A stretch of 46,179 nt of DNA from a virus. The notes beneath the pieces were generated by a model. It worked only from the letters and a program-made list of their open reading frames with translations, was not told the DNA's origin and searched no databases. Of the stretch, positions 13,046 through 33,711 are shown one piece after another. The stretch lies in IMG/VR virus record IMGVR_UViG_3300038468_000020, positions 1 to 46,179 of that record; one strand, given 5' to 3'. The translations under genes were made by a program, and so were the position numbers. How positions within the stretch are numbered: position 1 is the first letter of the stretch; every line of letters starts with the position of its first letter.

Positions 13046-14403
13046 TCAGGATCCCTCTCGACCGACTCAACCCCGGGCAACGGCGCCTCCTGGCCGCGCG
13101 TTCGTGGCGCGTGCTGATGGCCGGCGGTTACGGCTCGGGCAAAACGACAGGGCTTGCGATCAAACTCCTGACACTCAAGTCGATCAACGGTGAGGCCCCG
13201 GGGATGCTGATTGCGCCGACTTGGCGGATGATGTGGTCAGTGACGCTGCGCAACCTGTGGCGCATTTTGAGACAGTCTCTGCCGCCTGACAGGATGCCAA
13301 AGATCCGTGACCGTAACGGCGAGTGCTATCTGGACTTCGGCGACGGGAGCCCTGTGTTTCTTCGCAGCGCGAGCGATCCCGGGAAGATCGACGGGCTCGA
13401 CGTTGGATGGGTTTGCGGCGACGAGCTGCGCTACTGGAAACAAGAGGCGTTCGAGGTCACGCAGGGCCGCGTGCGCGTGCGGTGTCCTCTGCCCCAGCTC
13501 GCCTTTGCTTCGACGCCGGCAATGGGCTGGATGTCGGATGAGTTCAACACGGGCAAGGTGAATCACGAGCTGATCACGGCGCCGACGCGCGAGAACCTGG
13601 CGAACCTCGCGTCGAATTACGTCTCGAACCTCCGACAGTCGTATTCGCCACGGCTCCAGCGCGCGGTGCTGGACGGGCAATTCACCATCCTCGAGGGTTC
13701 GGTCTTTGAGGCGTTCGACCCCAACCCCGAGACATCTCCCTGGATCGTGAACTACAACCCGCGGTGTAACGGGGTCGAGTACAAGCCGCACTACCTGGCG
13801 TGCGACCCGGGCTACCGACGGTCGGCTTGGATCTGGGTGCAGGAGATCGGCGCGATGCAGTGGATCGTGGTTGACCAGATGATGCTCGACAACACGACGG
13901 ACGGCGACGCGGTGCGAGCGGTCAACGCCAGGGGTTGGCCGGTTGACGAAATCTGGGTTGACCCCGCGGCGCGCGCAAAGCAGAGCACGATGGGGCTCGA
14001 CACGATCCAGTTGATGCGGCAAATCAAGACGCGCAAACAGGAGGCGATCCGGTACGTGACCGGAGTGCATCGCGGGATCTCCTACGGGGTCGACAAGCTG
14101 CGGGTCCTGATCGGCGACCCATACAACATCTACCAGCCTTTGCGCCTGGGCTTCACGCGCGAGCTCGCGCTGCGCGAGGCGGGGAAAGAGCGTGGGATCG
14201 TGCGCGACCTCGGGGCCCTGCGCTACCCTGACGATCGCGAGGGGCGGCCGGTCGCCGACGTTCCGGTTGACGACGGGGTGACCTCGCACTCGACGGACGC
14301 GATCCGGTATTTCGCGGTCGGGCGTTGGCTGTGCGATCGAGGGTTGCAAAAGTTGGAGGTTGCGGGTAGGGTTGGCGGTGCGGGGTACAAGATCGCCGCG
14401 TAG
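13042..14403 (+). CDS. terL: Terminase large subunit
   Basis: A 453-residue packaging motor. ATPase: Walker A GGYGSGKTT (28-36), Walker B VGWVCGDE (121-128, catalytic E128) and coupling motif LAFASTPA (153-160). RNase-H-like nuclease: YLACDPG (D255), EIWVDPAA (D307), and a late SHSTDAIRY that supplies a third acidic residue. Both halves are complete and the length is standard. It cuts concatemers and pumps DNA into the prohead at the portal. Start GTG 13042 overlaps the small-subunit stop. Confidence 0.95.
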   Translation: MIRIPLDRLNPGQRRLLAARSWRVLMAGGYGSGKTTGLAIKLLTLKSINGEAPGMLIAPTWRMMWSVTLRNLWRILRQSLPPDRMPKIRDRNGECYLDFGDGSPVFLRSASDPGKIDGLDVGWVCGDELRYWKQEAFEVTQGRVRVRCPLPQLAFASTPAMGWMSDEFNTGKVNHELITAPTRENLANLASNYVSNLRQSYSPRLQRAVLDGQFTILEGSVFEAFDPNPETSPWIVNYNPRCNGVEYKPHYLACDPGYRRSAWIWVQEIGAMQWIVVDQMMLDNTTDGDAVRAVNARGWPVDEIWVDPAARAKQSTMGLDTIQLMRQIKTRKQEAIRYVTGVHRGISYGVDKLRVLIGDPYNIYQPLRLGFTRELALREAGKERGIVRDLGALRYPDDREGRPVADVPVDDGVTSHSTDAIRYFAVGRWLCDRGLQKLEVAGRVGGAGYKIAA

Positions 14404-14740: not shown

Positions 14741-16345
14741 GTGGGAATCTTCGACTCGGCCAGCGCCGATCAGATCCGCGCGCTCGCGCGCGAGGCGGTC
14801 TTCACCAGGTCGCCGGCCGGCACCGACTACGATACCGCTTGCCGCTACCTTGCGGGGCAACAATACGAGGACGTGGCTGGCCTGCTGCGCCAGCGGTTTC
14901 CGTCGTCGCAATCGGGCGAGCCCGGTCAAGAGATGGTGCCGTTTACGATCAACCTCACCGAGCGATACGTCTCGGAAGCGGCCAACGTCTACGACAAGGG
15001 CGCCAAGCGTAAGCTGGTAGACGAGAATGGCGAGGAGTCGGAAGCCACCAAGGCCGTTACTGAGGCGATGAATCGCCATGCGGACGAGATCCAACTAGAC
15101 GAGACGATGTGTCGCGTCGATCAGATACAGAATCTAATCGAGTCGTGCGCGTTGTCGTTTGGCCAGAAGCGCGCGAAGCTCAGCCTTCGGATCGTGCTCC
15201 CGCAGCACGCGGCGCTGGTGAAGAGCGATGAGCAGACGTTCGACGACGCAGACCAGGAGGACTACCGGGCGTACATCGTTCGCCTGACCGAGCTGGACAA
15301 TCAGGCGCGCGCGCGCTTCGCTTGGTACGCCCGAACCGAGACCGCGATCTTTCGCGGGATGGACGCGCAGAAGGTCGACACGATCGAAGGCGTCTACCCG
15401 AACCCGTGGTCCTGGCCGCAGGCCGTGCAGACCGACCCGACGAAGAAAGCCGAGACGCAAGATCGGCCGCTGATGCCGCTCGTCTGGTGGCATCGGGTCG
15501 AGCCGATCGGCGAGCTGTTGTCGCCCGGCGAGTCGTCGATCGTTGCCGCAAACCGAGAGATCAACGTTGCGCTGTCGGTGTTGATGGACACGTTTCGCTT
15601 TCAGGGGTTCGACACGCCGGTGTTCAATCTCGCCGATCCGAACTCTCCGAAGGCGAAGCGCAGGGTCGGTGCGCGGTTCCCGGCGACGTTGGGGATTGAG
15701 GAGACGTTCTCGTTTGCCCATTCGTCGGCGCCGTATACCGAGATGGTCAAGACGATCACCGATTACCTGCGCATGGTCGCGATGTGCCTGCGCATGAGCG
15801 GCAACGACTTCTCGATTGATGCTCAAGCCGCCACGTCGGGGTTTTCCAAGTTGGTCGACGCATTGCCGAAGATCGAGGCGCGTGCGGCTCGCGTTCGTCG
15901 GTTGCGCCGGATGGAGTCGGAATACCTGTGGCCTCGGATGTGCGCGATCCTGCAATGGCTGGACGTGCTACCGGCCGGCACCGAGAAGTTGCGGCTCGTG
16001 ACCGAGTTTCCCGATGTCGAGTTCCCGCAGACGCCAGAGGAGATCGCGAAGGAGTTGGAGACGGATATCAAGTACAACCTCGACACGGCGGCGAACGTCT
16101 ATGCGCGCCGCCATGGGGTCAGCGTCGAGGAGGCCGAGGAAGCAGTCAAGAAGAACGCCGAGAAGAATCGCGAGTTGCGCCAGGCTGAGCAACAGGCGGG
16201 CGGGGCTCAGGGTCCTGGGCAGATGTTCGGGCAGGCGCCTGGGCAACGGCCCGGTCAACAGGTCGGCCAACCTGGTGGGCCACAGCAAAGCCGGCTGGGC
16301 TCTCTGATCCGAAAGCAGCGGAGCGGAAATGCTGACGCGGAATGA
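14741..16345 (+). CDS. Portal protein
   Basis: A 534-residue protein directly downstream of the terminase, of the size of portal proteins. It has an N-terminal helical segment, a central alpha-beta wing region with PLMPLVWWHRVEPIGEL and VAANREINVALSVLMDT (about 245-285), and a long helical stem (about 380-470). The glutamine/glycine/proline tail (GPGQMFGQAPGQRPGQQ) is low-complexity. Portals form the dodecameric DNA gate of the head and dock the terminase. The call rests on position, length and the stem-like helices more than on a signature motif. GTG start, CGGAG upstream. Confidence 0.82.
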   Translation: MGIFDSASADQIRALAREAVFTRSPAGTDYDTACRYLAGQQYEDVAGLLRQRFPSSQSGEPGQEMVPFTINLTERYVSEAANVYDKGAKRKLVDENGEESEATKAVTEAMNRHADEIQLDETMCRVDQIQNLIESCALSFGQKRAKLSLRIVLPQHAALVKSDEQTFDDADQEDYRAYIVRLTELDNQARARFAWYARTETAIFRGMDAQKVDTIEGVYPNPWSWPQAVQTDPTKKAETQDRPLMPLVWWHRVEPIGELLSPGESSIVAANREINVALSVLMDTFRFQGFDTPVFNLADPNSPKAKRRVGARFPATLGIEETFSFAHSSAPYTEMVKTITDYLRMVAMCLRMSGNDFSIDAQAATSGFSKLVDALPKIEARAARVRRLRRMESEYLWPRMCAILQWLDVLPAGTEKLRLVTEFPDVEFPQTPEEIAKELETDIKYNLDTAANVYARRHGVSVEEAEEAVKKNAEKNRELRQAEQQAGGAQGPGQMFGQAPGQRPGQQVGQPGGPQQSRLGSLIRKQRSGNADAE

Positions 16346-19679: not shown

Positions 19680-20441
19680 ATGGCCCTTACTGCCTCACGA
19701 ACCACGAAAGGCGCAGAGTACCTGCGCGACATCGATCCGAATGAGATCGTGTGGCTGCCGGGCGATCCCGGCGTCACCTTCACCCGCGGCGACAAAGTCG
19801 ACTTCACCAATGGCGTCCTGAGCGTCATTACCAAGGGCGATCAACCGCTCTACGTGGTCGAGAAGACCACCGTCTGCCCCGCCGCCACCACCTACGGCTT
19901 CCCGGTCGTCGGGCTGCACACCGGCGCCGAGCCGGGATCGACGGCCGACATCATGAAGTGCCTGGTGCCGTGCCGCCCGCTCTTCCGCGGGCCGATCTAC
20001 CTGGAGACCTTCTCCGGCCAGTTCGACGACCTGGTTGCCGCGACGACTCCGGCGACCCCGAGCATCACGCTCACCACGTCGCCCGGCGCGAACGACGACA
20101 CCAACGGCGCGATCATCTACACCTACGCCGGCACCGGCGCTGGTCAGTGGAACATCGGCGACGACTACGTCCACACCACCAAGGTTCTGACGATGCATCG
20201 CAAGTTCGAGTCCGCGGTCTCGACCGACACCTACGCGATCGTCCTCGAAGGCGAAGGCGGCAGCGTCGGCGGCATCGGCTACGGGACGCGCCTCGACGAT
20301 GGCGACCACAACAACCTCGTGGTCGACGACGGGTACAACGACGGCGAGAACGTTATCTACATGGACGCTCTCCAGATCTCGAAGTACCTCAAGGACCTCA
20401 TGCTGCCGGTGGTTCGCGCCTCCGACGTCTATTACTCCTAA
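19680..20441 (+). CDS. Putative head decoration or minor capsid protein
   Basis: A 253-residue beta-rich protein, rich in D, G and T, with ATG 19680 behind GGGAGAATTTG. It lies between the scaffold and the major capsid gene, where decoration proteins, fibers or capsid stabilisers are common. The centre (about 120-170, TTPATPSITLTTSPGANDD onwards) is threonine-rich, and the last 30 residues are a helix/strand ending DVYYS. No cysteine pattern or known motif. Virion location is inferred from place and composition only. Confidence 0.58.
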   Translation: MALTASRTTKGAEYLRDIDPNEIVWLPGDPGVTFTRGDKVDFTNGVLSVITKGDQPLYVVEKTTVCPAATTYGFPVVGLHTGAEPGSTADIMKCLVPCRPLFRGPIYLETFSGQFDDLVAATTPATPSITLTTSPGANDDTNGAIIYTYAGTGAGQWNIGDDYVHTTKVLTMHRKFESAVSTDTYAIVLEGEGGSVGGIGYGTRLDDGDHNNLVVDDGYNDGENVIYMDALQISKYLKDLMLPVVRASDVYYS

Positions 20442-20459
20442 GAAAGGAGGGGACACACC

Positions 20460-21353
20460 ATGATCACCAGTGAATCCCTCAGCTACGCTCTCGACGAGAT
20501 TGTTTCCGCGGTCACGTTTGATTCCTTCTATGGCATGCCCTTCATGCTGCCTCAACTCTTCTCGGTTCGGCCGTCAAGCCGGCGGCGCGAGCGGTTCGCG
20601 TCTCTCGGCGGTCTCGGCGTGTGGACCGAGAAGACCCGCGGCGCCGCTGCCGACAGCGACGCGCTGGTTCAGCAGTTCGAGAAGGACTTTGTGCATACCG
20701 CGTTCGGGAAAGAGATCCCGATCGAGCGCGAGTTGATCGACGACTGCGAAGTCAACATCGTCGGCGAGATCGGGGTGCAGATCGGCGCCACCGCCGCGTA
20801 CACGATGGAGACGCACGCCGCCGAGGTCTTCAACGACTTCTTCGACGGTGCTACCTTCAAATCCGAGGATGGCGTGACCGTGTGCAACAACACGCACGTC
20901 AACAGCGACGGGACCACGCTCTCGGACAACTTGAGCACGACTAACGCGCTCAACACTGATGGCGTGTCGGCGGTCCGTACCGCGATGCGCGGATTCGTCA
21001 ACTCCCGCGGACTCAAGGACCCGTCGATCTTGAGGCTGATCCTGGTGCCGCCCGCGCTCGAAACCACTGCCGCACAGTTGGCCAAGAGCGAGCGCACCCC
21101 AGAGAACGCGATGAACACGGCGAACGTGTTCCAAGGCTTGCAATACGGGGTCTGGGATTTCCTGAGTTCGACGACCGACTGGTTCGGCATCGACACCGCG
21201 AAGATGAAGCAGGAAGTCCTGTGGCTCCAGCGCATCCCGCTGGAGGTCTTTTCGTCCGGCGACATGTTCACCGGCACGAAGAAGATCGGTGGCTATATGC
21301 GGTATAGCCGCGGCGTCAAGGGCTGGAACTGGGTCTACGGCAACAACGTCTGA
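20460..21353 (+). CDS. Major capsid protein, Mu gpT-like
   Basis: A 297-residue protein whose C-terminal half (LILVPPALETTAAQLAKSER then NAMNTANVFQGLQYGVWDF) is the conserved segment of Mu-type gpT major head subunits (HK97 fold). The N-terminus (SESLSYALDEIVSAVTFDSFYG) and the loop rich in DALVQQFEKDF fit the N-arm and E-loop. The start has an exceptionally strong ribosome site, AAAGGAGGGG, as expected for the most abundant virion protein, and a terminator-like hairpin follows. It forms the icosahedral shell. Confidence 0.9.
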   Translation: MITSESLSYALDEIVSAVTFDSFYGMPFMLPQLFSVRPSSRRRERFASLGGLGVWTEKTRGAAADSDALVQQFEKDFVHTAFGKEIPIERELIDDCEVNIVGEIGVQIGATAAYTMETHAAEVFNDFFDGATFKSEDGVTVCNNTHVNSDGTTLSDNLSTTNALNTDGVSAVRTAMRGFVNSRGLKDPSILRLILVPPALETTAAQLAKSERTPENAMNTANVFQGLQYGVWDFLSSTTDWFGIDTAKMKQEVLWLQRIPLEVFSSGDMFTGTKKIGGYMRYSRGVKGWNWVYGNNV

Positions 21354-21365
21354 TGACGAACGCGG

Positions 21366-21403
21366 GCGCGCCCGGGTCTCGCTTCTTCAACCGGGCGCGC
21401 TTT
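21366..21403 (+). terminator. Strong hairpin after the capsid gene
   Basis: Ten perfect GC pairs, GCGCGCCCGG (21366-21375) with CCGGGCGCGC (21391-21400), a 15-base loop, then TTT. It lies directly after the major capsid stop. It may attenuate read-through and keep capsid mRNA high or protect its 3' end. The T-tract is short, so partial termination is more likely than complete. Confidence 0.6.
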
Positions 21404-21438
21404 CGCGTAACGGGCGCAACGCGCCAGGAGAATGAACG

Positions 21439-22488
21439 ATGCGACACACGATTTTTGCGATTCTTGCCATTGGACTGACCGCGATCCCTGCGGGGGCGCG
21501 CGAGACCGAGTTTCAGTCGGGCATCATTTCCAAGACTGCTTCCGCTACCCCGACCGTCTGTGCGTCCGCTGCCGCTGGAGACATTTGCGCGGCTGACGAC
21601 GTAATCGTTGGCGACGACCTCGTACTTGAAAACAGCGGTGTGGTCCGCAACGACACCAACGGCGAGATCGAGTTCGCCGAGGGCACAGAGGATCTCAGCT
21701 TCGGATTCGGCACGTCGAATATGATCATCTTGACCAGCGACAGCGGTGTGATCATGGTCGAGCCGGCAGCGATCGATATCTTCAAGTCGATGAGCTACAC
21801 GATCGATACGTTGGTCGGTGCCGGAATCGGAATGGCTGGGATCCAGACCGACGCCACCGCATTGTCGAACACGGCAGCCGAAGAGAATTTCCTCTATTTC
21901 GCCAACGGCGCGATGCTTAACGAGGTCAGCGTCACCGATGCCGGCGGCGGCGGCGCATGCACTCCGACGATGGATGCCGAGGGCCTCGATATCTGCGTCG
22001 GCGTCGCGGACAATGATGCGGTGGAACTCTGGGGCGGAATGTACGGTGCCAGCGGTCGGGCATTCGTTGCGGGCACCGACGCGATCACGTTCTGCACGAC
22101 CTGGAATATCCATGACGTCAGCGGGTCGGATGCGATGTACTGCGGCGTGCGCACGATGAGCGACGCGGCGCAGGAGCCGATCACTGGGTATACCGACTAC
22201 TGCGGCACCGGCCATGTGCAAGGCCAGTACAAAGTCACAGACAAGACCACTGGCGACACCGACTGCGGCGCCGACGCCATCGCCGACGACGAAACCGATA
22301 CGTGGTGCGTGATCGTCTCGGCGGCGGGAGCTTGTACGTACACGGTCGACGGTGTTGCACCGAGCACGACCGACGCCCACACCCTGACATCGGGCAAACT
22401 GTTTATCCCGTTCTGCAACATGCGCAGCCACAGCGACGTTGCCGACGACACGTGGCTGACCGATTGGACTTTCTCCAAGACCAACTAG
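21439..22488 (+). CDS. Secreted hypothetical protein 1
   Basis: A 349-residue protein with a Sec-type signal peptide: MRH, then a hydrophobic core (TIFAILAIGLTAIPAG), cleavage probably after GARE or AGA near residue 20. The mature part is acidic, beta-rich, with ten or more cysteines (VCASAAAGDICAADD, GACTPTMD, TDYCGTG, DTDCGAD, DTWCVIV, GACTYTV) that could make disulfides in the periplasm. The last third resembles a jelly-roll-like carbohydrate-binding or structural fold, but no family is certain. First of three consecutive secreted genes downstream of the capsid gene. Good ribosome site CCAGGAGAAT. Confidence 0.75.
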   Translation: MRHTIFAILAIGLTAIPAGARETEFQSGIISKTASATPTVCASAAAGDICAADDVIVGDDLVLENSGVVRNDTNGEIEFAEGTEDLSFGFGTSNMIILTSDSGVIMVEPAAIDIFKSMSYTIDTLVGAGIGMAGIQTDATALSNTAAEENFLYFANGAMLNEVSVTDAGGGGACTPTMDAEGLDICVGVADNDAVELWGGMYGASGRAFVAGTDAITFCTTWNIHDVSGSDAMYCGVRTMSDAAQEPITGYTDYCGTGHVQGQYKVTDKTTGDTDCGADAIADDETDTWCVIVSAAGACTYTVDGVAPSTTDAHTLTSGKLFIPFCNMRSHSDVADDTWLTDWTFSKTN

Positions 22489-22499
22489 GGAGGATCATC

Positions 22500-23054
22500 A
22501 TGAAGTGCCTGATCGCCCCGGCCGCGCTGACTCTCGCGCTGGCGGTGCTGACCCTTGCGGCGTCGACCGTTCTTGCCGTCCCGGTGGAGACTCGTCGTGT
22601 CGACAACACGGCGCTCGGATACGGCACCGTGATTACGGCAAAGGCCCTGACATCGGACCGCTACACGGCGACCGAGTCTGGCAGATGGATCAATGTCAGC
22701 GACGTTCGCGCCGTCGCGTTCGACATTTCGTTGACCGATGCTGATTCAAGCTGCACCGCCATCACCATGACCTGCGAGGTCTCAACCGAGGTTGTGACCA
22801 CGAATGACGCCGGGTTTGAATACCAAGCGCCTATGACATGCTCGGGCGGCGCCTGTGTCTACGTGCAGAAGACTTGGTGCAAAGGTACGGCCGCGGCCTG
22901 TGGGCTGGGGTCGGGTTCGGCTCCGGGATCGCGCAAATGGACCTGGATGGTTGACTCGATCCCTGGCCCATATCTTAATTGTCTATTCCACGCGGCCGGG
23001 ACGCCAGCCGGTACCGATCTTCTGACCGTTGTTGCCCGGGGGCTCACGCCATGA
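22500..23054 (+). CDS. Secreted hypothetical protein 2
   Basis: A 184-residue protein with a clear signal peptide (MKCLIAPAALTLALAVL, then LAASTVLAVPVE; cleavage likely after VLA near residue 26). The mature portion is a small beta protein with paired cysteines, CTAITMTCEV, TCSGGACVYV, WCKGTAAACGL and a late CLFHAAG. ATG 22500 is preceded by AGGGAGGATCATC. It overlaps the third secreted gene as ATGA. Periplasmic or outer-surface location is inferred. Whether it ends up on virions is unknown. Confidence 0.74.
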   Translation: MKCLIAPAALTLALAVLTLAASTVLAVPVETRRVDNTALGYGTVITAKALTSDRYTATESGRWINVSDVRAVAFDISLTDADSSCTAITMTCEVSTEVVTTNDAGFEYQAPMTCSGGACVYVQKTWCKGTAAACGLGSGSAPGSRKWTWMVDSIPGPYLNCLFHAAGTPAGTDLLTVVARGLTP

Positions 23055-24367
23055 TCCGGCCCATCTTCGCATTCCTCGCCGTTTTTGCCCTGTCCTGGTC
23101 GGCCGCCGCGCAGTGCTGGGACCAATCCGGGGCGGGGTTGTGCGGGGATTGGTGCGGCGACAACAACGCTGCCGGCTACGACATCACCAACATTGACGAC
23201 ATCTACGACTCCGCAGCGCAAAGCAGCGATGTCGCCTGCACCCCGACGCCGGTTTGGTCGGGCGGGTGCGTGCCGTTCGCGGGCGTGGGCGCGGCGAATA
23301 ATGCCGGCGGGCCGGTGTGCGCCATTCCGCCGAGCGGGAACAATCAGCTCACCGGCGTAACGTGCGGCGCGGTTGCCGAGGGCACGACGGTCACGTTGAC
23401 GGTAATCGATTTGACCTGCGCGGTCACCACCGTGGTCCTGACGGAGGGCGACGGGACGGGGGGCACCTTCTCCTGCAATGGCGGCGGGTGTACTGACGCC
23501 GGGTGCATTGCGAACCTGTCTGCCGTGGCTGAGGCGGCGGAGGCGGCGGGGAAATTCGGCAGCACCTACACGGCGGCCTCCGAGACGATGAATTTTTATC
23601 TCGTCCCCGGGACCTCGGTTTGGGTCAGCGCTGTGTCGAGCGACACCGATATTGCGATCGCACAGGGCAACGACGGGCAGGTGATGGTGCCGCCGGGGAC
23701 TGCGGCGTTGCCAGCCTTTGTCTATCCAGGCGATCCCGACAGCGGGTGGTATTGGTATGGCAGTAACGCCTGGGGCTGGTCCGGTGGCGGCGTGATCCGA
23801 TATATTTTCTCGACCGGCGGGATCAGCGTGGGGGCGCTGCCTGTCTATTCGTCCGGCGGCATACTCTCGCTCGGCTCGGCGACAGCCGTGACCACAAGCC
23901 ATAGCCTGGCCAACGGCTCCGTCGGGATGCTCTTGGATTTAGAGATCGACGGCAATGACCTTTGGGTCGATAGCGCCAAAGGCGCGGGCGGCCATATGTC
24001 AAGCATCACCGAAAGCGTCACCTTTGCCAACGACGCCAGCAAGGCCACGGTCGGCAGCATCCTGCCGGACGGCGCTTTCATCTTCGGGGTGTCGGGGCGC
24101 GTGACGACCTTGCTCGCCGGCTGTACCTCGGTCAACGTCGGCGACGGGGTTGACCCGGACCTGTTCAAGGCCGGGCTCGCACTCGCCGCCGGCTCGACGT
24201 TTACCAACGCGGACGCAACGGCGGCATTCACGACCATTTCGGGCGGGTTCGCACCGCGCATCGCTGCCGGCGAGATCACCGTCACGGCAGTCGGCGGCAA
24301 CTGCACCGCGGGCGTTGTCGCGCTTACGGTGCATTACCTCGATGTGACCGCGGCGACGAGCAATTAA
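23051..24367 (+). CDS. Secreted hypothetical protein 3 with phage structural-type C-terminus
   Basis: A 438-residue protein. The signal peptide is IRPIFAFLAVFALSWSAAAQ (cleavage after AAA near residue 20). The early mature part is cysteine-rich (QCWDQSGAGLCGDWCGDN, GGCVPF, FSCNGGGCTDAGC). The last 110 residues (ITESVTFAND, then ILPDGAFIFGVSGRVTTLL, then VNVGDGVDPDLF) look like the C-terminal domain of phage structural or fiber-like proteins. Two cysteines there (AGCTSV and GNCTAG) sit where I recall ordinary residues in relatives. A secreted version of a virion domain is unusual. The next start shares its stop (TAATG). Confidence 0.72.
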   Translation: MIRPIFAFLAVFALSWSAAAQCWDQSGAGLCGDWCGDNNAAGYDITNIDDIYDSAAQSSDVACTPTPVWSGGCVPFAGVGAANNAGGPVCAIPPSGNNQLTGVTCGAVAEGTTVTLTVIDLTCAVTTVVLTEGDGTGGTFSCNGGGCTDAGCIANLSAVAEAAEAAGKFGSTYTAASETMNFYLVPGTSVWVSAVSSDTDIAIAQGNDGQVMVPPGTAALPAFVYPGDPDSGWYWYGSNAWGWSGGGVIRYIFSTGGISVGALPVYSSGGILSLGSATAVTTSHSLANGSVGMLLDLEIDGNDLWVDSAKGAGGHMSSITESVTFANDASKATVGSILPDGAFIFGVSGRVTTLLAGCTSVNVGDGVDPDLFKAGLALAAGSTFTNADATAAFTTISGGFAPRIAAGEITVTAVGGNCTAGVVALTVHYLDVTAATSN

Positions 24368-24732
24368 TGCCAATCGCAGGAAAAGAGTCAAAAGCCATGA
24401 AAGTCTACCTGGCAATGGGAGCGCTTCTGCTCGCGTCGGTCGCGGGCAACGCCTATCTGCTCTCAGGCGGCGAATACAAACAGGTCGAGGTCACGGGTGA
24501 GGTGACATCTGACGCCCTGCTCTCCGCCGCCACCCCCGCCTGCCGGGCTCAGGTCGCCGAGGTGCGGCCGGACGCTACCTGCGAGTGGCGCGTGGTTAAG
24601 AAATGGAACGGCACACAACTAGTGGCCTCCCCCGGTTGGTATTGCGGCGGGTCTTTCGTGCCCACTGTCACGCAGGCCTGTCTCGACGACGCCAAGGCAA
24701 TCATTGCGGGCGAAGGGCAGATGGAACCATGA
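24367..24732 (+). CDS. Membrane-anchored or secreted small protein
   Basis: A 121-residue protein. ATG 24367 overlaps the previous stop; ATG 24397 (MKVYLAMGALLLASVAGNAY) would begin exactly at the hydrophobic segment and is the better signal-peptide or anchor start, though it lacks a close ribosome site. The exposed part holds four cysteines (PACRAQV, TCEWRV, WYCGGSF, QACLDD), suggesting two disulfides. It joins the secreted run to the lysis genes with an ATGA overlap. Function unknown; an entry-exclusion or lysis role is possible. Confidence 0.68.
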   Translation: MPIAGKESKAMKVYLAMGALLLASVAGNAYLLSGGEYKQVEVTGEVTSDALLSAATPACRAQVAEVRPDATCEWRVVKKWNGTQLVASPGWYCGGSFVPTVTQACLDDAKAIIAGEGQMEP

Positions 24733-25088
24733 CACCCGAGGAATGGACACGGCTTGAGGCAATGGTCGCCTCGCACAGCCCGGCGCCGGCCTGGGTATCA
24801 TGGGCCAAAGGCCTCGCCGCCGCGGTCGTGGTGGCGGGCGCTCTGCTCGCGGCGGCCGGGGTTCTCTTTGTGACCAGGACCGATGCCGACGCGGCGCACA
24901 CGACAATCCTCAAGGATCACGATGCCGACATAGCCCCGATCGTCCAAACCATGCACGAGGTCGCCACCGACTCCAAGCTACTCGGCCAGCGCCTCGGCCA
25001 GACCGAGGAGCGGGTGCGCGAGCTTCGAGAGGCATTCGACCGACGACGACGGCCGGCGCCCGAACCGGACCCGGGGTCCGGTCCATGA
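24729..25088 (+). CDS. Membrane protein with coiled coil, spanin- or holin-like
   Basis: A 119-residue protein with one or two N-terminal membrane spans (about 24-50, WAKGLAAAVVVAGALLAAAGVLF), then a helical, charged periplasmic-type stretch (about 60-105, TMHEVATDSKLLGQRLGQTE) and a proline-rich end. Anchor plus coil is the shape of an inner-membrane spanin, or of a membrane accessory to endolysin. It precedes the amidase. The topology is inferred. Confidence 0.66.
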   Translation: MTPEEWTRLEAMVASHSPAPAWVSWAKGLAAAVVVAGALLAAAGVLFVTRTDADAAHTTILKDHDADIAPIVQTMHEVATDSKLLGQRLGQTEERVRELREAFDRRRRPAPEPDPGSGP

Positions 25089-25195
25089 TGCGCTACGGAC
25101 CCTGCCACGCCGCCGCGGTCGGCGCTGCTGCCGGGGTGCTCGCCCGCTGGCTGTGGCCCTGGGCTGCGTGGCTCTATGAGAGGGCGAGACCATGA
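25085..25195 (+). CDS. Tiny membrane peptide in the lysis cassette
   Basis: A 36-residue peptide, MMRYGPCHAAAVGAAAGVLA and then RWLWPWAAWLYERARP, fitting neatly between two genes: its ATG overlaps the upstream TGA and its TGA overlaps the amidase ATG. The alanine/glycine/tryptophan core could be a short membrane span. The double ATGA coupling supports it being translated. It may be a holin modulator or an unrelated leader; no family is known. Confidence 0.55.
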   Translation: MMRYGPCHAAAVGAAAGVLARWLWPWAAWLYERARP

Positions 25196-25779
25196 AACCT
25201 CTCGTCTGTGGAATTGCCGCCGGGCACGGCGGCGAAGACGGGGGCGCCGTGTCGGGCGACCTCGTCGAGTCCGATCTCAACCTCGCGCTGGCCAACGCAA
25301 TCGTGACAATCCCTTCTGGGCCGCACCTCGTCTTTGAGATGATTCGCCTGCGCGACGACGATCTACCGCTCGACGTTCGCAACAGCATGGCCAAGCAGCT
25401 AGGGTGCGATTTCGTGGTCGAGCTGCACCACAACAGCCTGTCAGTCAACCAAGCGGCGCATGGCGCGCTGATCTTCTGGTATCGCGGCTCGGGCAAGGCT
25501 GGCTCTCTCGCCGACAAGATCGCAGCGGCCATGCCCAAGGCCCTGCAGCCGGCACGCGCGGTGCGCATCGGGCCAGTGACCGGCGGCGACTCCGACGACT
25601 ACCCGCGCGCCCGCCACGTCCTCGAGTCCTACTCGGCGCCGTGCCTGGTGGTCGAAGTGGCCTACTTGTCAAACGTGAGCGATCGGGAGTACCTTCGCAA
25701 GCCAACGTCTACCGCCGAGGTGGCGGCAAGCATTCACGCGGGGCTGATGCAGGCGCCCGCTGTCTGGAGTATCCGATGA
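25192..25779 (+). CDS. Endolysin, N-acetylmuramoyl-L-alanine amidase (Amidase_3)
   Basis: A 195-residue zinc amidase that cuts the bond between N-acetylmuramic acid and L-alanine in peptidoglycan. The order AAGHGGEDGGAVSG (H12), VESDLNLALA (E26), VVELHHNS (H79/H80) and VVEVAYLSN (catalytic E155) is the complete Amidase_3 active site. It has no signal peptide and no separate wall-binding domain, so holin-dependent release is expected, as in Gram-negative phages. It is translated with its neighbours via ATGA overlaps. Confidence 0.93.
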   Translation: MKPLVCGIAAGHGGEDGGAVSGDLVESDLNLALANAIVTIPSGPHLVFEMIRLRDDDLPLDVRNSMAKQLGCDFVVELHHNSLSVNQAAHGALIFWYRGSGKAGSLADKIAAAMPKALQPARAVRIGPVTGGDSDDYPRARHVLESYSAPCLVVEVAYLSNVSDREYLRKPTSTAEVAASIHAGLMQAPAVWSIR

Positions 25780-26063
25780 CTGACGTTTCCCATACACCCG
25801 TCGAGACTCCGATCACGGCGCCCGCCGTCGAGCCCATCCCTCACGACGGGTGGGGCTCACGAAAGGTGATCATCGGCTGCGCCGTCGTCGGCCTGATGAT
25901 CGGCCTGCCGTTCGCGTGCCTCCTGCTTACCGCGCCGGGGGCCACGGCCCCGATCGCCACCTTCGATCAGGTGACCTCGTTCTGGCAGCTCGCGGTGCCG
26001 AGTGTTTTGGTGCCGTTGTTCGCGGCGCTCGGCTACGACAAGCGGCTTGAGGCGGGGCGGTGA
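25776..26063 (+). CDS. Holin-like two-span membrane protein
   Basis: A 95-residue protein with two hydrophobic segments, KVIIGCAVVGLMIGLPFACL (about 30-50) and FWQLAVPSVLVPLFAALGY (about 69-87), and a short charged tail (DKRLEAGR). Two spans with both ends inside fits a class II-like holin that would open the inner membrane for the amidase encoded just upstream. Start ATG overlaps the amidase stop. Other small membrane proteins nearby could play the same part, so the assignment is moderate. Confidence 0.66.
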   Translation: MTDVSHTPVETPITAPAVEPIPHDGWGSRKVIIGCAVVGLMIGLPFACLLLTAPGATAPIATFDQVTSFWQLAVPSVLVPLFAALGYDKRLEAGR

Positions 26064-26470
26064 GCGCCGGTGTCCTCGCAAAGCTCCGCCAGCTCCCCGC
26101 ATGGGCAAAGGTCACCGCTGCCGTCGTGGTCCTGGCCGGCGTGGCTTTCGCGGCTTGGCTCGTCTATGGCCCTGCTGTCGGCGGGGCAACGGCGGTCGTC
26201 GGGGCAATCCTCGGCGCCTTCGGCCTTGGGAAGAAACGTGACAGCGACCTCGGCCTTGCCGTCGATCTCGCCGTCGAGCGCGCTGAGCGCGCCGAGCGGG
26301 ACGCTGAGACTGCGCGCCGTGGCGCATCCGCCCGAGCTCGTGCGGTGGTTTCGGATCGCGTGCGTGAGGCTCAGGCGCGGGTGGACGCTGACGGCCGTAG
26401 CGACCGCGATGTGCTCGATGCCCTCACAGCTCCGCGCCGAAGAGCCGGAGACGACGACCCTGCTCCCTGA
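26060..26470 (+). CDS. Membrane protein with charged tail, inner-membrane spanin candidate
   Basis: A 136-residue protein. Residues 13-56 hold one or two membrane spans (VTAAVVVLAGVAFAAWLVYG and VGGATAVVGAILGAFGLG). Residues 62-115 form a long arginine/glutamate helix (AVERAERAERDAETARR), the form expected for an inner-membrane spanin or a holin accessory. A second reading frame (26340-26876) overlaps its last 131 bases, recalling Rz/Rz1. GTG start overlaps the holin stop. Confidence 0.63.
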   Translation: MSAGVLAKLRQLPAWAKVTAAVVVLAGVAFAAWLVYGPAVGGATAVVGAILGAFGLGKKRDSDLGLAVDLAVERAERAERDAETARRGASARARAVVSDRVREAQARVDADGRSDRDVLDALTAPRRRAGDDDPAP

Positions 26471-26876
26471 CCTCCGGCTGATGGAACCGGGCTTGCCGTA
26501 CCCGTGCGAAGTCGGCGCGGACGGCGCGCTGATGGAGGCGTCCGACGGGGCGACTTGCGACCCTCACGAGCCCGGCGCGCGGTTGCTGCCTCGCCTGCGG
26601 TGGCTCGCGGTCAAACGCCAGCTTCTCGATTGCCTGGCGTATCGTGGGCTCTGCCGAGATGCGCTCGGCGAGAGCGACCGCGTGTGGCGCGTGGTGACCA
26701 GGGCCTCACTTGCTGCACAGGCGGCGCGGTTGTCGGTGGACCAGATTCAGGCGGTGCAAGCCGAGTCGACCGACTGGCCGGCATGGCGCGCCTACGTCTG
26801 GATCGTGGCGGTCGGGATCGGGTTGTTTTTTGTCGGCGCTGGGGCGGGCGCAATCGTCGCGTTGGTGTCGGGGTGA
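26340..26876 (+). CDS. Signal-peptide protein with C-terminal span, overlapping lysis gene
   Basis: A 178-residue reading frame in the +1 frame relative to the previous gene, sharing 131 bp with it. GTG 26340 is the most likely start because it places a signal-like segment (WTLTAVATAMCSMPSQLRAE) at the N-terminus; ATG 26410 is an alternative. The body carries five cysteines, mostly paired (PYPCEVG, ATCDPHE, LDCLAYRGLC), and the last 25 residues are a membrane span (YVWIVAVGIGLFFVGAGAGA). The overlap suggests an outer spanin-type partner, but a C-terminal span is not normal for one. Exact start uncertain. Confidence 0.58.
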   Translation: MRWFRIACVRLRRGWTLTAVATAMCSMPSQLRAEEPETTTLLPDLRLMEPGLPYPCEVGADGALMEASDGATCDPHEPGARLLPRLRWLAVKRQLLDCLAYRGLCRDALGESDRVWRVVTRASLAAQAARLSVDQIQAVQAESTDWPAWRAYVWIVAVGIGLFFVGAGAGAIVALVSG

Positions 26877-28391: not shown

Positions 28392-30074
28392 ATGAGCAGC
28401 TTCCTTGCGCGCACGTTTGAGAACAAGCAGGTCGGGTACGTCCCGCACACGTCCACCAGCGGTGAGACCTGGGCCAAGACGACCGAGGGGACCACGACCG
28501 GCGCGGGCAACGCGGGCGGCACCACGTTGGTCAACACCAGCGGCGACAGCGGCGCGGCCGACACGTACAACGGGCAGTATTGGATCGAGATCCTGAGCGG
28601 CACCTGCAAGGGCGAGGAGCGCCGCATCGTCGATGACGACGGCGCCGGCACCCTCACGGTCGAGACCGCGTTTTCGGCCCAGATCGCCGGCTCGGTGGAC
28701 TATGTGATCCGCAAGAGCCCCGAGCCCGTGGTTGTTGCGACGACGGGGGGGACGCTCTCGACCACGCAGATCAACATGGACGCGCGCAATGAGGACGACG
28801 ATTTCTGGAAGGGCTACTATCTCGTCCCGCTCTACGGCGCTTGCGCGGGCGAGGCGCCCAAGCTGATCTCGGCGTTCGACCAAACCGGCGGCGCGAGCGA
28901 GGGCCTGTTCACCTTCGCCGCTTTCGTTGGCACCCCCGTTGGCGGCGATGTCTTCCTGTTGCGCAAGTTCATCGACGTCGACCTCGACCCGGGCGCCTTC
29001 ACCCGCGCGTATCACGCGCGCCCCGGCGTGCGCCTGGGCCACACCCAGGGCGACGGCGTCGTCGGTGCCAAGGACGCGCCCGTCTCGTTCAACCTGCCCA
29101 TCCGCCCCAGCGGCACACTCGCCGCAGCCGACGCCAACGCCAACGCAGCCGAGGCGAGCGGTCTGATGCAGGCGATTGGGCTCGAGGAGGTGGTCCAGAA
29201 GTCCGTCACGGTGGGCGCCGGCAACGCAAGCGCGAGCGCTGTCAGCATCGCGACCGGCGACCGCGAGAACCTGGCGATCGGCGGGCTCGTCTGCTGGAAC
29301 AACAACTGGCGCCGCATCACGTCGCTGGCGGACGGTGGCGCTGGCGTCGATACGATGAACGTCAGCCCGGCATTCCCGCTCGTCCCGCCCGCGGCCGACG
29401 TGATCTACGCGGCCCGCATGTACAAAAAGAGCACGACCCCCGGCAACCTGCTCGGCGCCTGCATCGAAGTCGAGGTCGACGGCGTGCGCCACACGCTCAC
29501 GGGCTGCAAGGGCAACGCATCGTTGGCCAATGCGGGTCACGCCGATCTCGCCTTCTCTCTCCAAGCCGATCACTGGATCAAGGATCCGAGCACCGCGGCC
29601 TACAACGCGGGCGCGGCCTACTCGACGATCCCGCCGGTGCTCGCGCACGACTGCGAGTTCTACCTCGACACCACGGCGACCGGGATGGCTGGCTTTACCG
29701 CCACGCCCGGGACCAAGGTGGCGGCCAAGAAGATCCCGGGCTCGGTCGGGATCAACGGTCGCGCCGGCTTCGAAGTCACGGGCTACGCGGCAAGCGCGAC
29801 GTTCGACGAGCTGTTGAACGCCGCAGTCGACACGCTGCCGCAAGAGCTGAAGTTCACGGCGCGCACGGCCAAGGCACTGCTCGCGGTCTTCGGCTCGGCC
29901 GGCGACATCTTCGCGGTGACGATCCCGGTGGCGCGCATGGTCGCGCAGCCGGCAACCAAGAACGCCGACGGCATGATCGCCGCGCCGAACGTTCTTGCGG
30001 CACATGATGCCGGCACCGCTTTGAACAACACCACCTACGAGCGAGTCCCCGACTTCGCGTTTCATATCAGCTAG
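28392..30074 (+). CDS. Putative major tail tube protein
   Basis: A 560-residue beta-rich protein with ATG 28392. It lies immediately before the G/GT frameshift pair, the normal place of the tail tube. The sequence contains at least one extra beta domain (about 20-110, TYNGQYWIEILSGTCKGEER) and a central region with PGVRLGHTQGDGVVGAKD and VSFNLPIRPSG that recalls tail tube repeats. At 560 residues it is longer than usual tube proteins, probably because of decorating domains. A frame on the opposite strand spans it but is only a GC-driven shadow. Confidence 0.7.
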   Translation: MSSFLARTFENKQVGYVPHTSTSGETWAKTTEGTTTGAGNAGGTTLVNTSGDSGAADTYNGQYWIEILSGTCKGEERRIVDDDGAGTLTVETAFSAQIAGSVDYVIRKSPEPVVVATTGGTLSTTQINMDARNEDDDFWKGYYLVPLYGACAGEAPKLISAFDQTGGASEGLFTFAAFVGTPVGGDVFLLRKFIDVDLDPGAFTRAYHARPGVRLGHTQGDGVVGAKDAPVSFNLPIRPSGTLAAADANANAAEASGLMQAIGLEEVVQKSVTVGAGNASASAVSIATGDRENLAIGGLVCWNNNWRRITSLADGGAGVDTMNVSPAFPLVPPAADVIYAARMYKKSTTPGNLLGACIEVEVDGVRHTLTGCKGNASLANAGHADLAFSLQADHWIKDPSTAAYNAGAAYSTIPPVLAHDCEFYLDTTATGMAGFTATPGTKVAAKKIPGSVGINGRAGFEVTGYAASATFDELLNAAVDTLPQELKFTARTAKALLAVFGSAGDIFAVTIPVARMVAQPATKNADGMIAAPNVLAAHDAGTALNNTTYERVPDFAFHIS

Positions 30075-30083
30075 GAGGTTCCC

Positions 30084-30557
30084 GTGCTCAAGCCCGTCAG
30101 TATCACGACCACGGCGGCGGTAGCGTGGCCGCTCGACCCCGCCTTTGACGCCACCCAAGCCGAGCGCGAGGCGTGCGCGGCCAAGATGGTCGACGACGTC
30201 GGAGCCTGGAAGCAGTTGAAGGTCAAGGCCGGTGAGCAACCGACCGTCTTCACGATCGGTGTGATCCCGGCTTCGACGCTGACGCTCTACGAGGACCAGT
30301 GCGGCCCGCGCACGTCGCGCATGCTCTACTGGCTGTGCTTCAAGCGCGGAATCCAGGGGCTCGCTGGCTATCCGCCGGCCTGGCTCTATAACGAAAAGGA
30401 GATCCCGATGGTCGACCCCGGCAATGGGATGCCCAAACACGTCAGCGCCGCGTGGCTCGAACAGCACTTCAACGGCCAGCTTCGCGAGTGCGGGGTTTTC
30501 ATCGGGACCGTGATCTACCGCTGGCAAGACCTCGCCGGGGGCGACGTAAAAAACTAA
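30084..30557 (+). CDS. Tail assembly chaperone G
   Basis: A 157-residue protein from GTG 30084 behind the strong CTAGGAGGTTCCC. It is alpha-rich and lies exactly between tail tube and tape measure, the place of the chaperone pair that guides tape-measure assembly in siphoviruses. It ends DLAGGDVKN at TAA 30555, and the last codons form the slippery sequence A AAA AAC. Most ribosomes should stop here; a minority would shift and make the longer GT form. The assignment rests on location plus the frameshift signal, which is very strong evidence together. Confidence 0.85.
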   Translation: MLKPVSITTTAAVAWPLDPAFDATQAEREACAAKMVDDVGAWKQLKVKAGEQPTVFTIGVIPASTLTLYEDQCGPRTSRMLYWLCFKRGIQGLAGYPPAWLYNEKEIPMVDPGNGMPKHVSAAWLEQHFNGQLRECGVFIGTVIYRWQDLAGGDVKN

Positions 30558-30961
30558 TCCGGGCGGTCGAGGCCCGGGAGCTACTGGACCGCCCGATGTG
30601 TCACGTTTGCACCGACAACAACAAGCGCCGCCGAGGCTGCCGCATCCAAGGCCGCAGCATCAAGCGCGAGTCGGCCCCCGTGCGCTGGTGCTCACCGGCG
30701 TTGCAGGCCAAGGCCGACGAGCTTAGCGAGTGTCCGACAAGCTATCTCGCACGCGAGGCGCCGTGGGTCTGGGATGCGATTGAGGCGTCAACGATGGTGG
30801 AACGGATGGGCCCTGACGCCTGGGCGTCGGCGCCGCGTGCCCTTCGTACCGCGGCGCGCATCTATTCGTCCGAGATGGAGCGCGCTCGCCAGATCAACGA
30901 GAAGCGCAAGCGCAGCAAGGCCGCGAGCGAATACGGCCAAAGGGCGGTGAGCCGTGGTTGA
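30084..30961 (+). CDS. Tail assembly chaperone GT by -1 frameshift
   Basis: The zero frame (30084-30554) joins the -1 frame (30554-30961) at A AAA AAC, giving a 292-residue fusion. The frame after the shift opens LIRAVEARELLDRP and continues 135 residues with a cysteine/histidine patch (MCHVCTDNN, then GCRIQ and RWCSP), a helix and a basic tail that ends 4 bp inside the tape measure gene. A frame starting independently at 30452 has no ribosome site and reads as shadow before the slip. The T part would hold the tape measure while G drives assembly, as in lambda. Confidence 0.85.
30548..30594 (+). promoter_or_regulatory. -1 ribosomal frameshift signal
   Basis: The heptamer A AAA AAC (30548-30554) is in the correct phase (codons GTA AAA AAC). 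After a 6-base spacer comes a perfect 8-bp stem, GGGCGGTC (30561-30568) with GACCGCCC (30587-30594), and an 18-base loop. A smaller stem CCGGGC/GCCCGG competes in the same region. The zero-frame stop follows the heptamer at once, as usual in such signals. Confidence 0.9.
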
Positions 30962-32603
30962 TCAGATTGTTGGCGAAGTCAAGCTCAAGGCCGACACCAA
31001 GGACGCGGAGGCTGGGGCCAAGCGGGTTCAGGAGTCGTTCACGGGCGCGATGATCAAGTCGCAACTCGCGACTCAGGCACTCAGCAAGGCCGTTGACCTT
31101 CTGGTTTCCGGCATCACCTCAACGTTCAAGGCCGCCGAGGAATACCGAGTCGGCGTCGAGAAGTTGACCCGGGCGCTGTCGTCCGCTGGCCACGACGCCA
31201 AGTATTGGGTCGACATTCTTGAACAGGAATCGTCGGCGCTACAGAAGCGCGCCGGGATCTCGGACGACACGATCCGCGATCTCCAGACGATGGCGACCAA
31301 CCTCGGGGTGATGCCGTCCGAGATGGAAAAGTATATCGAGGCTGCGATTCGGATGTCGCGGGCCACAGGGCGCGACTTGAACGGCAGCCTGGAGTCCTTG
31401 ATCAAGCTCGAGACCGGCGTCGTTGACCGCACCCTCAAGGTGATCCCGGAGATCGACAATCTCACCAAGGCGCAGCTACTCAACGGCGACGCCGTCAACG
31501 TCATCAACGAGAGGTGGGACGAGTTCCTCGACGTGAGCGATACCGTGTCTGGCGGGCTCACGACGCTGCGGCTGAGCTACGAGGATTTGCTTGAAACGAT
31601 TGGCAAGAATATCTCCGACGACGGTACTGTGATCTGGGCTCTTAGCAAGGCCAATAGTTTGCTGGAGACAATTGACAAGTATATGGGTCAACACGCCAAG
31701 TGGGCCCGGTTCCGCGATGAGTGGGCGCCGGCAGAAGAAGAGACAGGCGGCGGCGGCAAGATCGTTGGGACCCATACCGTCACCGAGGAGATCAGTAGGG
31801 CCACTAGAAAGAGCGCGAAGAAGTCGGGCAAGAGCAAGCAGGCTCCGCTCCGTGACCTCGGCGGCGGCGGTGGTATCGATGAAGGCGTTATCATGCTCGG
31901 AGGTCTACCTTACGATCCCGTGTCGGGGCAATTTCTCCCGCCGGAACCGCCCGACCCGGCCAAGATCAAGGCCGCGGTCGACCAATACCAAGACGACATC
32001 TTCGCGTCGATCGAAGTGCGTCGCGAAAAGCACAGTCAGCGCATGGCTGAGTTCGCCGACAAGGATCTGGCCTACGCCATCGCCAAAGACGAGGAGCGGG
32101 CGGCGAATTACCAGTGGATGACCGATACCATGATGGGCGCAGCAGAGAGCTTCACCAATGCCGGGGTCGGGCTTCTGATGGATCTTGCGGGTGCGAGCGG
32201 TGAGCAACAAGCGATCATCCTTAAGCAGTTCTTGTCGAGCACAGGCGAGCAACTGATCGGAATGGGCATCCGCGATTCATTCGCGGCTACATCCGAGCTG
32301 ATCGGCTCCTACGGCATGAGCCCTAAAGGGTGGGCCTTGCTCGCCATGGCCGGTGCCGAGATTGCGGGCGGTGCCGCAATGATGGGGGGGTCGACGGCGA
32401 TCTCTGTGCCGTCCGGCGGCGGCGGCGGCGGCGGGACTGGCGCCGTGGCGTCGGGCGGCGGTTCGAGCGCCGCCGGCAACCTGGGCCAGATGGGCGGGGA
32501 TCGGATGAGCAACACGACGGTCATTATCTATGGCGAACCCAGCGCCAGGCTCGGTGTCATCGTTCGCGACTCGGTCGCGCTTGCCGCCAATCGAGGGGTA
32601 TAG
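30954..32603 (+). CDS. Tail tape measure protein
   Basis: A 549-residue, mainly helical protein directly after the chaperone pair. It starts with GTG 30954 (MVDQIVGEVKLKADTKD), a typical TMP opening. The N-terminal 230 residues are long helices (IEAAIRMSRATGRDLNG), a hydrophobic region follows near 420-470 (MGIRDSFAATSELIGSY, then ALLAMAGAEIAGGAAMM), and a glycine-rich stretch leads to the C-terminus. At about 0.15 nm per residue, it predicts a tail near 80 nm (an estimate from the rule, not a measurement). It sets tail length and reaches the membrane at infection. Confidence 0.88.
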   Translation: MVDQIVGEVKLKADTKDAEAGAKRVQESFTGAMIKSQLATQALSKAVDLLVSGITSTFKAAEEYRVGVEKLTRALSSAGHDAKYWVDILEQESSALQKRAGISDDTIRDLQTMATNLGVMPSEMEKYIEAAIRMSRATGRDLNGSLESLIKLETGVVDRTLKVIPEIDNLTKAQLLNGDAVNVINERWDEFLDVSDTVSGGLTTLRLSYEDLLETIGKNISDDGTVIWALSKANSLLETIDKYMGQHAKWARFRDEWAPAEEETGGGGKIVGTHTVTEEISRATRKSAKKSGKSKQAPLRDLGGGGGIDEGVIMLGGLPYDPVSGQFLPPEPPDPAKIKAAVDQYQDDIFASIEVRREKHSQRMAEFADKDLAYAIAKDEERAANYQWMTDTMMGAAESFTNAGVGLLMDLAGASGEQQAIILKQFLSSTGEQLIGMGIRDSFAATSELIGSYGMSPKGWALLAMAGAEIAGGAAMMGGSTAISVPSGGGGGGGTGAVASGGGSSAAGNLGQMGGDRMSNTTVIIYGEPSARLGVIVRDSVALAANRGV

Positions 32604-32604
32604 C

Positions 32605-33711
32605 GTGTCGATCCCTATCCCAAAAATCCTACCGGCGTTCACGCTCGATTCGGCCCTGACGCTCAAGCTCGCGATCGACGGCGTAGGCGCCTTCGATGTC
32701 ACAGTCACGGTCACGATTCCGGCCGGGACCTATTTTATGCGCTGGGACGCTCAATCGGATGACTTCCTGCGCGTGCTACACTTGGCTTGTTACACCGCGC
32801 TCGATGCCTGTGCGGTTGTGGCGTACAACGGGGCCGACAACGACGGGAAGCCGATGTTTGGGATCGATGCCAATCATAAGGTCACGATCACGATCGGCGG
32901 CGGACTCGACATGCGCTTCGACTGGACGCTCAATGACGGCGCGACCGTCGCTGGGATTTTGGGGTTCGACGCCACCGCCAACCTGGAGGTGACGGCCGGC
33001 GAGACCGAGACCGCCAATTGGCAGCACGCCTATGGCTGGTACGCGAGCGCCGAGGGGCAATACACGGGCGGCGTCGTCGAGGACACGGAGACCGCGCACG
33101 TCGCCCAGGCGCGCGCGATCGGCGGCGAAGTTGTGACCCAATACCTCGCCAGCATCTATGACAACCACCTGTCACTGCGCTGGCTCGAGCGGCTTGATAC
33201 CTTCTCGCGAGGCGTCGGCTACACGACGGCGCCCGTTGACCCCTACGAGCGCAACCGCGGGATCGAGTGTCTGTGGCGCGCCATCCGCGACGGCTCGCGC
33301 TTCTGCGTCTACCTAGACAGCATCCTCGACACGACCAAAGCCGAAGAGATTGGGGCTTATGATTTCACGGGCTCGCTGACGGTTCTGACTGACGCGGCCA
33401 AGGGGTGGGGCGTGGATCCGCAAGAGCACGTGGGCAAGCTCCTTTTTATTGACGAGTGGGGGGACGTCGCAAGCGGGAGCGCCCCCCAGCGGTTCTATGT
33501 GTCGAGCAATACGGCAACTACGCTCACGGCGCCGAACTCGCTCAACAACACGCCGCTGTCGGGGCTCGGTGATTCGACCTACCACATTTTCGATCAGCGA
33601 TACGCAACCTACGTGCTCGATCTCGCGAAGATGCGGACGTTCGCGCCGAACGAGATCCCCGATATCGACAAGTATGAGATCGACTTGCCGTTGTTGAGGT
33701 ATGTCCCGTGA
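32605..33711 (+). CDS. Tail tip protein, distal-tail-like
   Basis: A 368-residue beta-rich protein, first gene after the tape measure. It starts at GTG 32605 with GAGGGG upstream. The N-terminal 130 residues form a beta domain that includes GIDANHKVTITIGGGLDMRF; the C-terminal portion has a second beta domain inserted (about 250-330) and ends KYEIDLPLLRYVP. Position and length suit a distal tail (Dit)-type or baseplate wedge protein that joins the tube to the hub. Identification is by order, not by motif. Confidence 0.62.
   Translation: MSIPIPKILPAFTLDSALTLKLAIDGVGAFDVTVTVTIPAGTYFMRWDAQSDDFLRVLHLACYTALDACAVVAYNGADNDGKPMFGIDANHKVTITIGGGLDMRFDWTLNDGATVAGILGFDATANLEVTAGETETANWQHAYGWYASAEGQYTGGVVEDTETAHVAQARAIGGEVVTQYLASIYDNHLSLRWLERLDTFSRGVGYTTAPVDPYERNRGIECLWRAIRDGSRFCVYLDSILDTTKAEEIGAYDFTGSLTVLTDAAKGWGVDPQEHVGKLLFIDEWGDVASGSAPQRFYVSSNTATTLTAPNSLNNTPLSGLGDSTYHIFDQRYATYVLDLAKMRTFAPNEIPDIDKYEIDLPLLRYVP

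Follow-up and report, generated by a model that had tools for sequence, protein, structure and literature searches.

A probable late gene run in a siphophage-like virus encodes predicted Sec-exported proteins, one of them with a tail-fibre knob

The window analysed here comprises an entire IMG/VR virus record (46,179 bases) and encodes a siphophage-like virus in which four consecutive genes (P1 to P4) start with sequences resembling Sec signal peptides. The third of them codes for P3, which is probably a receptor-binding protein of the fibre type, with a knob that, judged by homology, derives from the tail-fibre lineage of R4C and RcGTA. P1 and P2 are probably companions of P3 in a late operon, likewise predicted to be exported. 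As the best explanation, which we hold with some confidence, these genes specify late-expressed, Sec-exported fibre or adhesin proteins, which would fold in the periplasm and subsequently either become part of virions at lysis or cover glycans of the host.

A run of signal-peptide genes between capsid and lysis genes

Annotation with Pfam and PHROGs located the head, lysis and tape measure genes listed in Table 1, while the tail genes at 28392–38618, apart from the tape measure gene, matched no PHROG or Pfam family. P1 to P3 together with P4 form a run between the capsid gene and the Amidase_3 endolysin gene, which agrees with the original prediction that a trio of exported proteins lies right behind the capsid gene and ahead of lysis. 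That trio stands, but its limit does not, as the adjacent fourth gene also scores above the cut-off, albeit closest to it of the four.

Table 1. Features of the window and the evidence for them
Feature	Position	Strand	Evidence and remarks
Terminase	13042-14403		Pfam/PHROG annotation
Portal	14741-16345		Pfam/PHROG annotation
Major capsid protein, directly upstream of P1	20460..21353	+	Pfam Phage_capsid_4 E 2e-9; Mu-like gpT E 1e-4; PHROG major head protein
P1, predicted Sec-exported, 349 aa, 11 Cys, orphan	21439..22488	+	open frame, RBS, signal score
P1 predicted signal peptide, residues 1-20	21439..21498	+	score 5.01, cut MRHTIFAILAIGLTAIPAGA^RETE
P2, predicted Sec-exported, 184 aa, 7 Cys in mature chain, orphan	22500..23054	+	open frame, RBS, signal score
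P2 predicted signal peptide, residues 1-26	22500..22577	+	score 4.18, cut ..TLAASTVLA^VPVE
P3, predicted Sec-exported fibre-type protein, 438 aa	23051..24367	+	signal score, knob homology
P3 predicted signal peptide, residues 1-20	23051..23110	+	score 4.92, cut MIRPIFAFLAVFALSWSAAA^QCWD
P3 C-terminal knob, residues ~301-438 (~140 aa)	23951..24364	+	homology to R4C/RcGTA-type tail fibre tips
P4, small, signal-like hydrophobic start, 111 aa, 4 Cys	24397..24732	+	score 4.06
Endolysin; the lysis genes begin here, behind the block of predicted exports	25192..25779	+	Pfam Amidase_3 E 2.6e-26
Tape measure protein	30954-32603		Pfam/PHROG annotation

N-termini were assessed by a simple rule of our own, which scores charge, hydrophobic core and the residues at -3/-1 and employs a cut-off of 4.0. 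Calibrated on annotated E. coli K-12 proteins, this cut-off admitted none of 55 from the cytosol; 13 of 20 exported proteins passed it, as did 2 of 12 that span the membrane several times. Among ~61 candidate genes of the window, values of at least 4.0 were reached by P1 to P4 and one doubtful 90-aa ORF only, and the chance that four of five passing genes lie in a row is P ~5e-4. The signal peptides that had been proposed for the genes at 21439, 22500 and 23051 are thus borne out by their scores. In all four N-termini the n-, h- and c-regions are canonical and the residues at -3/-1 small, in conformity with the Sec/signal peptidase I type, i.e. a positive start, a hydrophobic core and small -3/-1 residues. 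Ribosome-binding sites are present at the signal-peptide starts of P1 (AGGAG) and P2 (GGAGG), the start codon of P3 overlaps the stop codon of P2 as ATGA, and GC3 of P1 and P3 follows the pattern typical of genes.

The mature chains of P1 to P3 contain 31 Cys in 905 residues (3.4%) as compared to 72 in 6666 (1.1%) in the other structural genes, which amounts to a threefold enrichment (Fisher P 6e-7). The original prediction, which spoke of many paired cysteines, therefore holds for Cys richness, but complete pairing is not borne out: the counts per mature chain are odd (11 in P1, 7 in P2, 13 in P3), excluding full pairing within one chain and leaving free or intermolecular thiols.

No relatives of P1 or P2 were detectable by single-sequence scans of viral contigs or by tblastn in 50,697 phage records, and neither belongs to a family in Pfam, PHROGs, NCBIfam or PADLOC. 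P3 and the capsid protein, used as single-sequence queries against viral contigs, gave no relatives either, and none of P1 to P4 matched a defence protein among the PADLOC models at E up to 1. Since P1 and P2 lack relatives, we infer their role from position and signal peptide only.

P3 carries the knob of R4C/RcGTA-type tail fibres

P3 consists of the predicted signal peptide (residues 1–20), a Cys-rich part reaching to residue ~152, in which 11 of its Cys residues are located (22–152), a fibre-like shaft motif (~216–255) and the knob (~300–438). In a profile search with hmmsearch the knob matched chain S of PDB entry 8gtc (8gtc_S, E 8e-34), and Foldseek aligned the knob model with 8gtc_T (E 1e-5). 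Structure prediction of the mature chains, as suggested originally, was informative for this part of P3 but not for P1: the P3 model, built from a 47-row alignment, is confident in the knob only (pLDDT mostly 80–96), whereas the AlphaFold2 model of P1, made without relatives, was useless (pLDDT 33). The knob model also showed weak Foldseek likeness to the subunits of Ena endospore appendages, pili that are linked by disulfides (ranks 4 and 6), and to the Pam1 capsid.

Entry 8gtc is the baseplate of R4C, in which the homologue of the P3 knob belongs to one of three trimeric fibres (PMC10276861). The baseplate fibres of R4C and RcGTA (8gtc, rcc00171) carry a C-terminal knob homologous to that of P3. 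Using tblastn, residues 216–437 of P3 matched fibre genes of the Roseobacter and Dinoroseobacter phages RDJL Phi 1/2 and DshS-R5C, which are located directly behind a tail gene resembling GTA orf15 (L003, L004, L005). Fibres of the RDJL type have the shaft motif just ahead of the knob in common with P3. In roseophage records such proteins go by the name 'ribonuclease III' (e.g. L003 9653–10735), a label that we rejected as misannotation of a DUF2793 tail fibre because 8gtc shows the protein as a fibre of the baseplate (PMC10276861). The PDB entry 8gtc itself also bears this name.

P3 differs from the R4C/RcGTA fibres in several respects. DUF2793 (PF10983), which most fibres of this type contain and with which the RDJL and R5C proteins begin, was absent from P3 by Pfam search, and its place is taken by the signal peptide and the Cys-rich N-terminus. 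Its gene does not follow an orf15-like hub/megatron gene but P2 and the capsid gene. Within the knob, an Ala and a Phe of the R4C/RcGTA fibres are replaced by Cys358 and Cys418; 45 of the 47 aligned sequences have Ala and Phe at these sites, one has Pro and Phe, and no aligned knob other than that of P3 has Cys at either. Judged by this exchange, Cys358 and Cys418 likely constitute an added disulfide. No virion-attachment domain was recognisable in P3, and a search for the Pfam Head_binding domain PF09008 gave no match in P1 to P3.

Fibres and spikes with predicted export signals in other uncultured phages

The notion of a conserved trio acting as a 'system' was not sustained: P1 and P2 have no detectable relatives, and the exact P1-P2-P3 trio was found nowhere else in the viral contigs or the 50,697 phage records. 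What recurs is the design, namely consecutive small beta-type proteins with predicted signal peptides accompanied by a fibre, and not the sequence.

We surveyed 80 knob loci (64 on viral and 16 on bacterial contigs). A signal peptide on the knob protein was present in 2 and absent in 78 of them, and a signal-peptide-bearing knob protein is thus a rare form. Locus L023 encodes a 791-aa tailspike composed of signal peptide, P22-type head-binding domain (PF09008, E 5e-16), beta-helix and knob, whose gene comes last in a P22-like gene order, as read by eye from translations. Here, a signal peptide resides on a virion receptor-binding protein that has the same knob as P3, while P3 has neither the head-binding domain nor a match to a beta-helix family. 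In L052, a spike with beta-helix and knob as in L023 but a different N-terminal part is likewise preceded by a signal peptide.

Signal peptides also occur on fibres with other tips. A tail-collar protein (PF07484, E 1e-21) bearing one is encoded in L019 and L100, near-identical contigs that count as about one case, and in L100 a capsid gene with kinship to that of the window is followed after 14 bases by the gene of a 723-aa signal-peptide fibre. A scan with the C-terminal domain common to two exported fibres retrieved L124 to L128. A signal peptide is present in all six members with a visible start (L100, L124, L125, L126, L127 and L128) and absent from the three distant relatives L129 to L131 (3/3). 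Members of the family neighbour connector and capsid genes in L124 and L126, follow a connector gene in L127 and are flanked by terminase and connector genes in L125. The closest match to the arrangement in the window is provided by L125 (4351–7324), where three consecutive signal-peptide genes (159, 147 and 684 aa) extend from the large terminase to the connector gene; a protein related to the 159-aa one is encoded in L128 (157 aa, E 7e-13). Hence, the fibres of L100 and L124 to L128 resemble P3 in having a signal peptide, a fibre-like build and a position among head genes, with small exported neighbours in L125 and L128, but they differ from P1 to P3 by another C-terminal domain, few Cys residues and the lack of any sequence match.

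Comparison of these six fibres revealed that within the first 22 residues 5–9 of 16–22 are shared, whereas the last 110 residues are 50–91% identical. N-termini that diverge and yet stay signal peptides, next to conserved C-termini, represent the evolutionary pattern of true signals. The fibres of L100 and L124 to L127 contain 0–3 Cys, indicating that disulfides do not explain export in general and that Cys richness is particular to the phage of the window.

A longer run is found in the 42.3-kb contig of L023 (G001; L097 1215–5140), where five consecutive signal-peptide genes (140, 77, 339, 228 and 528 aa) are flanked by lysis genes (M15-type peptidase-like, Rz/Rz1-like) on one side and by the terminase gene on the other; the 528-aa protein comprises an Ig-like domain and a beta-helix. 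Related observations were made elsewhere. L110 (136–3274) encodes a 773-aa beta-helix protein and a 113-aa protein, both with signal peptide, near packaging genes and a tail-collar fibre. In six viral contigs (L108, L112 to L116), conserved pairs of adjacent small signal-peptide proteins (119–121 and 176–187 aa) are encoded on the minus strand beside a collar protein, and gp45 of Pelagibacter phage HTVC023P (L088 15385–16041) has a similar make-up.

In search of an isolated phage with virion proteomics and an exported fibre, queries with three of the exported proteins retrieved no isolate, and within the first 50 kb of the Cellulophaga phage phi17:2 genome no structural protein had a signal peptide. 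A published description of Sec-exported tail fibres was not found in the open-licence literature.

Possible fates of the predicted Sec-exported proteins

Since the assembly of tailed phages takes place in the cytoplasm, it is odd to find signal peptides next to virion genes, as was remarked originally, and the accompanying suggestion of external display or alteration of the host surface fits the fibre knob of P3 and the recurrence of the design. For the further suggestion that the proteins may block other phages, a comparison with defence-system models gave no match. According to the explanation we favour, region 21439–24732 would constitute a late operon for four proteins exported by the host Sec machinery. 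P1 to P4 would be made late alongside the capsid genes and pass through Sec. In the periplasm they would fold, acquire their disulfides and build up until the adjoining lysis genes open the cell. Following lysis, they would act as sugar-binding adhesins outside the cytoplasm.

Two end uses may be considered. Joining of released virions is ranked first because in L023 one protein has both a signal peptide and a domain for virion attachment, and because virion genes surround the genes in question. Such attachment after lysis would resemble that of P22 tailspikes, which add to heads late, also in vitro. Second comes the use as free proteins that occupy host surface glycans, since P3 has no recognised attachment domain. 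For P3 itself, the two uses fit the observations equally well.

The second use, if taken as the sole one, amounts to the strongest rival explanation, which we consider unlikely, though a serious contender: the proteins would never join virions but attach to sugars of the capsule or of LPS, either within the periplasm or on the cell surface. The consequence, to be regarded with the same reserve, would be that re-infection of the host is prevented and progeny is not trapped on lysis debris. A comparable protein is the phage receptor-blocking lipoprotein Llp of T5, which is phage-made, exported and acts on the receptor. Llp would work like P1 to P3 under such a model, but P1 to P3 are far larger and lack a lipobox where cleavage is predicted. 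The related tail fibre of RcGTA binds capsule polysaccharide, and its addition to cells was reported to block RcGTA gene transfer, which was read as receptor blocking (PMC10218006). Likewise, P3 keeps the receptor-binding knob and is devoid of DUF2793 or any recognised virion-binding domain, and lysis genes adjoin the block both in the window and in G001. However, the exported L023 tailspike retains its P22-type head-binding domain, which would be needless for a blocker, the genes are located among capsid and connector genes, and no defence model was matched.

It appears improbable that the proteins are not exported at all, and that the hydrophobic starts are elements of virion assembly or membrane insertion in ordinary cytoplasmic structural proteins. 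Location in the structural block, the cytoplasmic assembly of tailed phages and the dependence of the predictions on a home-made score speak for this possibility. On the other hand, all N-termini have the canonical regions and small -3/-1 residues, a combination that no cytosolic control reached, the N-termini of L100 and L124 to L128 changed without ceasing to be signal peptides, and the Cys-enriched mature chains suit an oxidising compartment. Even less probable are cargo (moron) adhesins that alter the surface of the living host and have no role in the lytic cycle. The proteins are adhesin-like, exported by prediction and unconserved between phages, which speaks for morons, but their genes run on one strand with the late genes, closely spaced and overlapping, a promoter-like site was not found within 20300–26500, and the P3 domain is that of a phage fibre. 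Wrong start codons or chance scores are hardly credible: high-GC DNA is indeed prone to spurious reading frames, and scores >4 also occur in a few overlapping ORFs of the window, but gene-typical GC3 (P1, P3), ribosome-binding sites at the signal-peptide starts, four genes in a row and knob homology contradict an artefact, which is already refuted for P3.

Receptor-binding proteins that bear export signals, encoded amid head and packaging genes of unrelated uncultured phages, contrast with the taught view that tailed-phage assembly is wholly cytoplasmic. As a tentative generalisation, some tailed phages may possess an export branch of virion assembly, in which fibres or spikes travel via Sec, are oxidised and folded in the periplasm and become attached at lysis. 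If our explanation is true, either a part of the virion is completed beyond the cytoplasm, or receptor-binding proteins are secreted by phages in free form before the cell lyses, which would bear on host range, superinfection and the loss of progeny to cell debris. Phage annotation would be affected as well, as the labels 'ribonuclease III' and 'hypothetical' hide fibres here.
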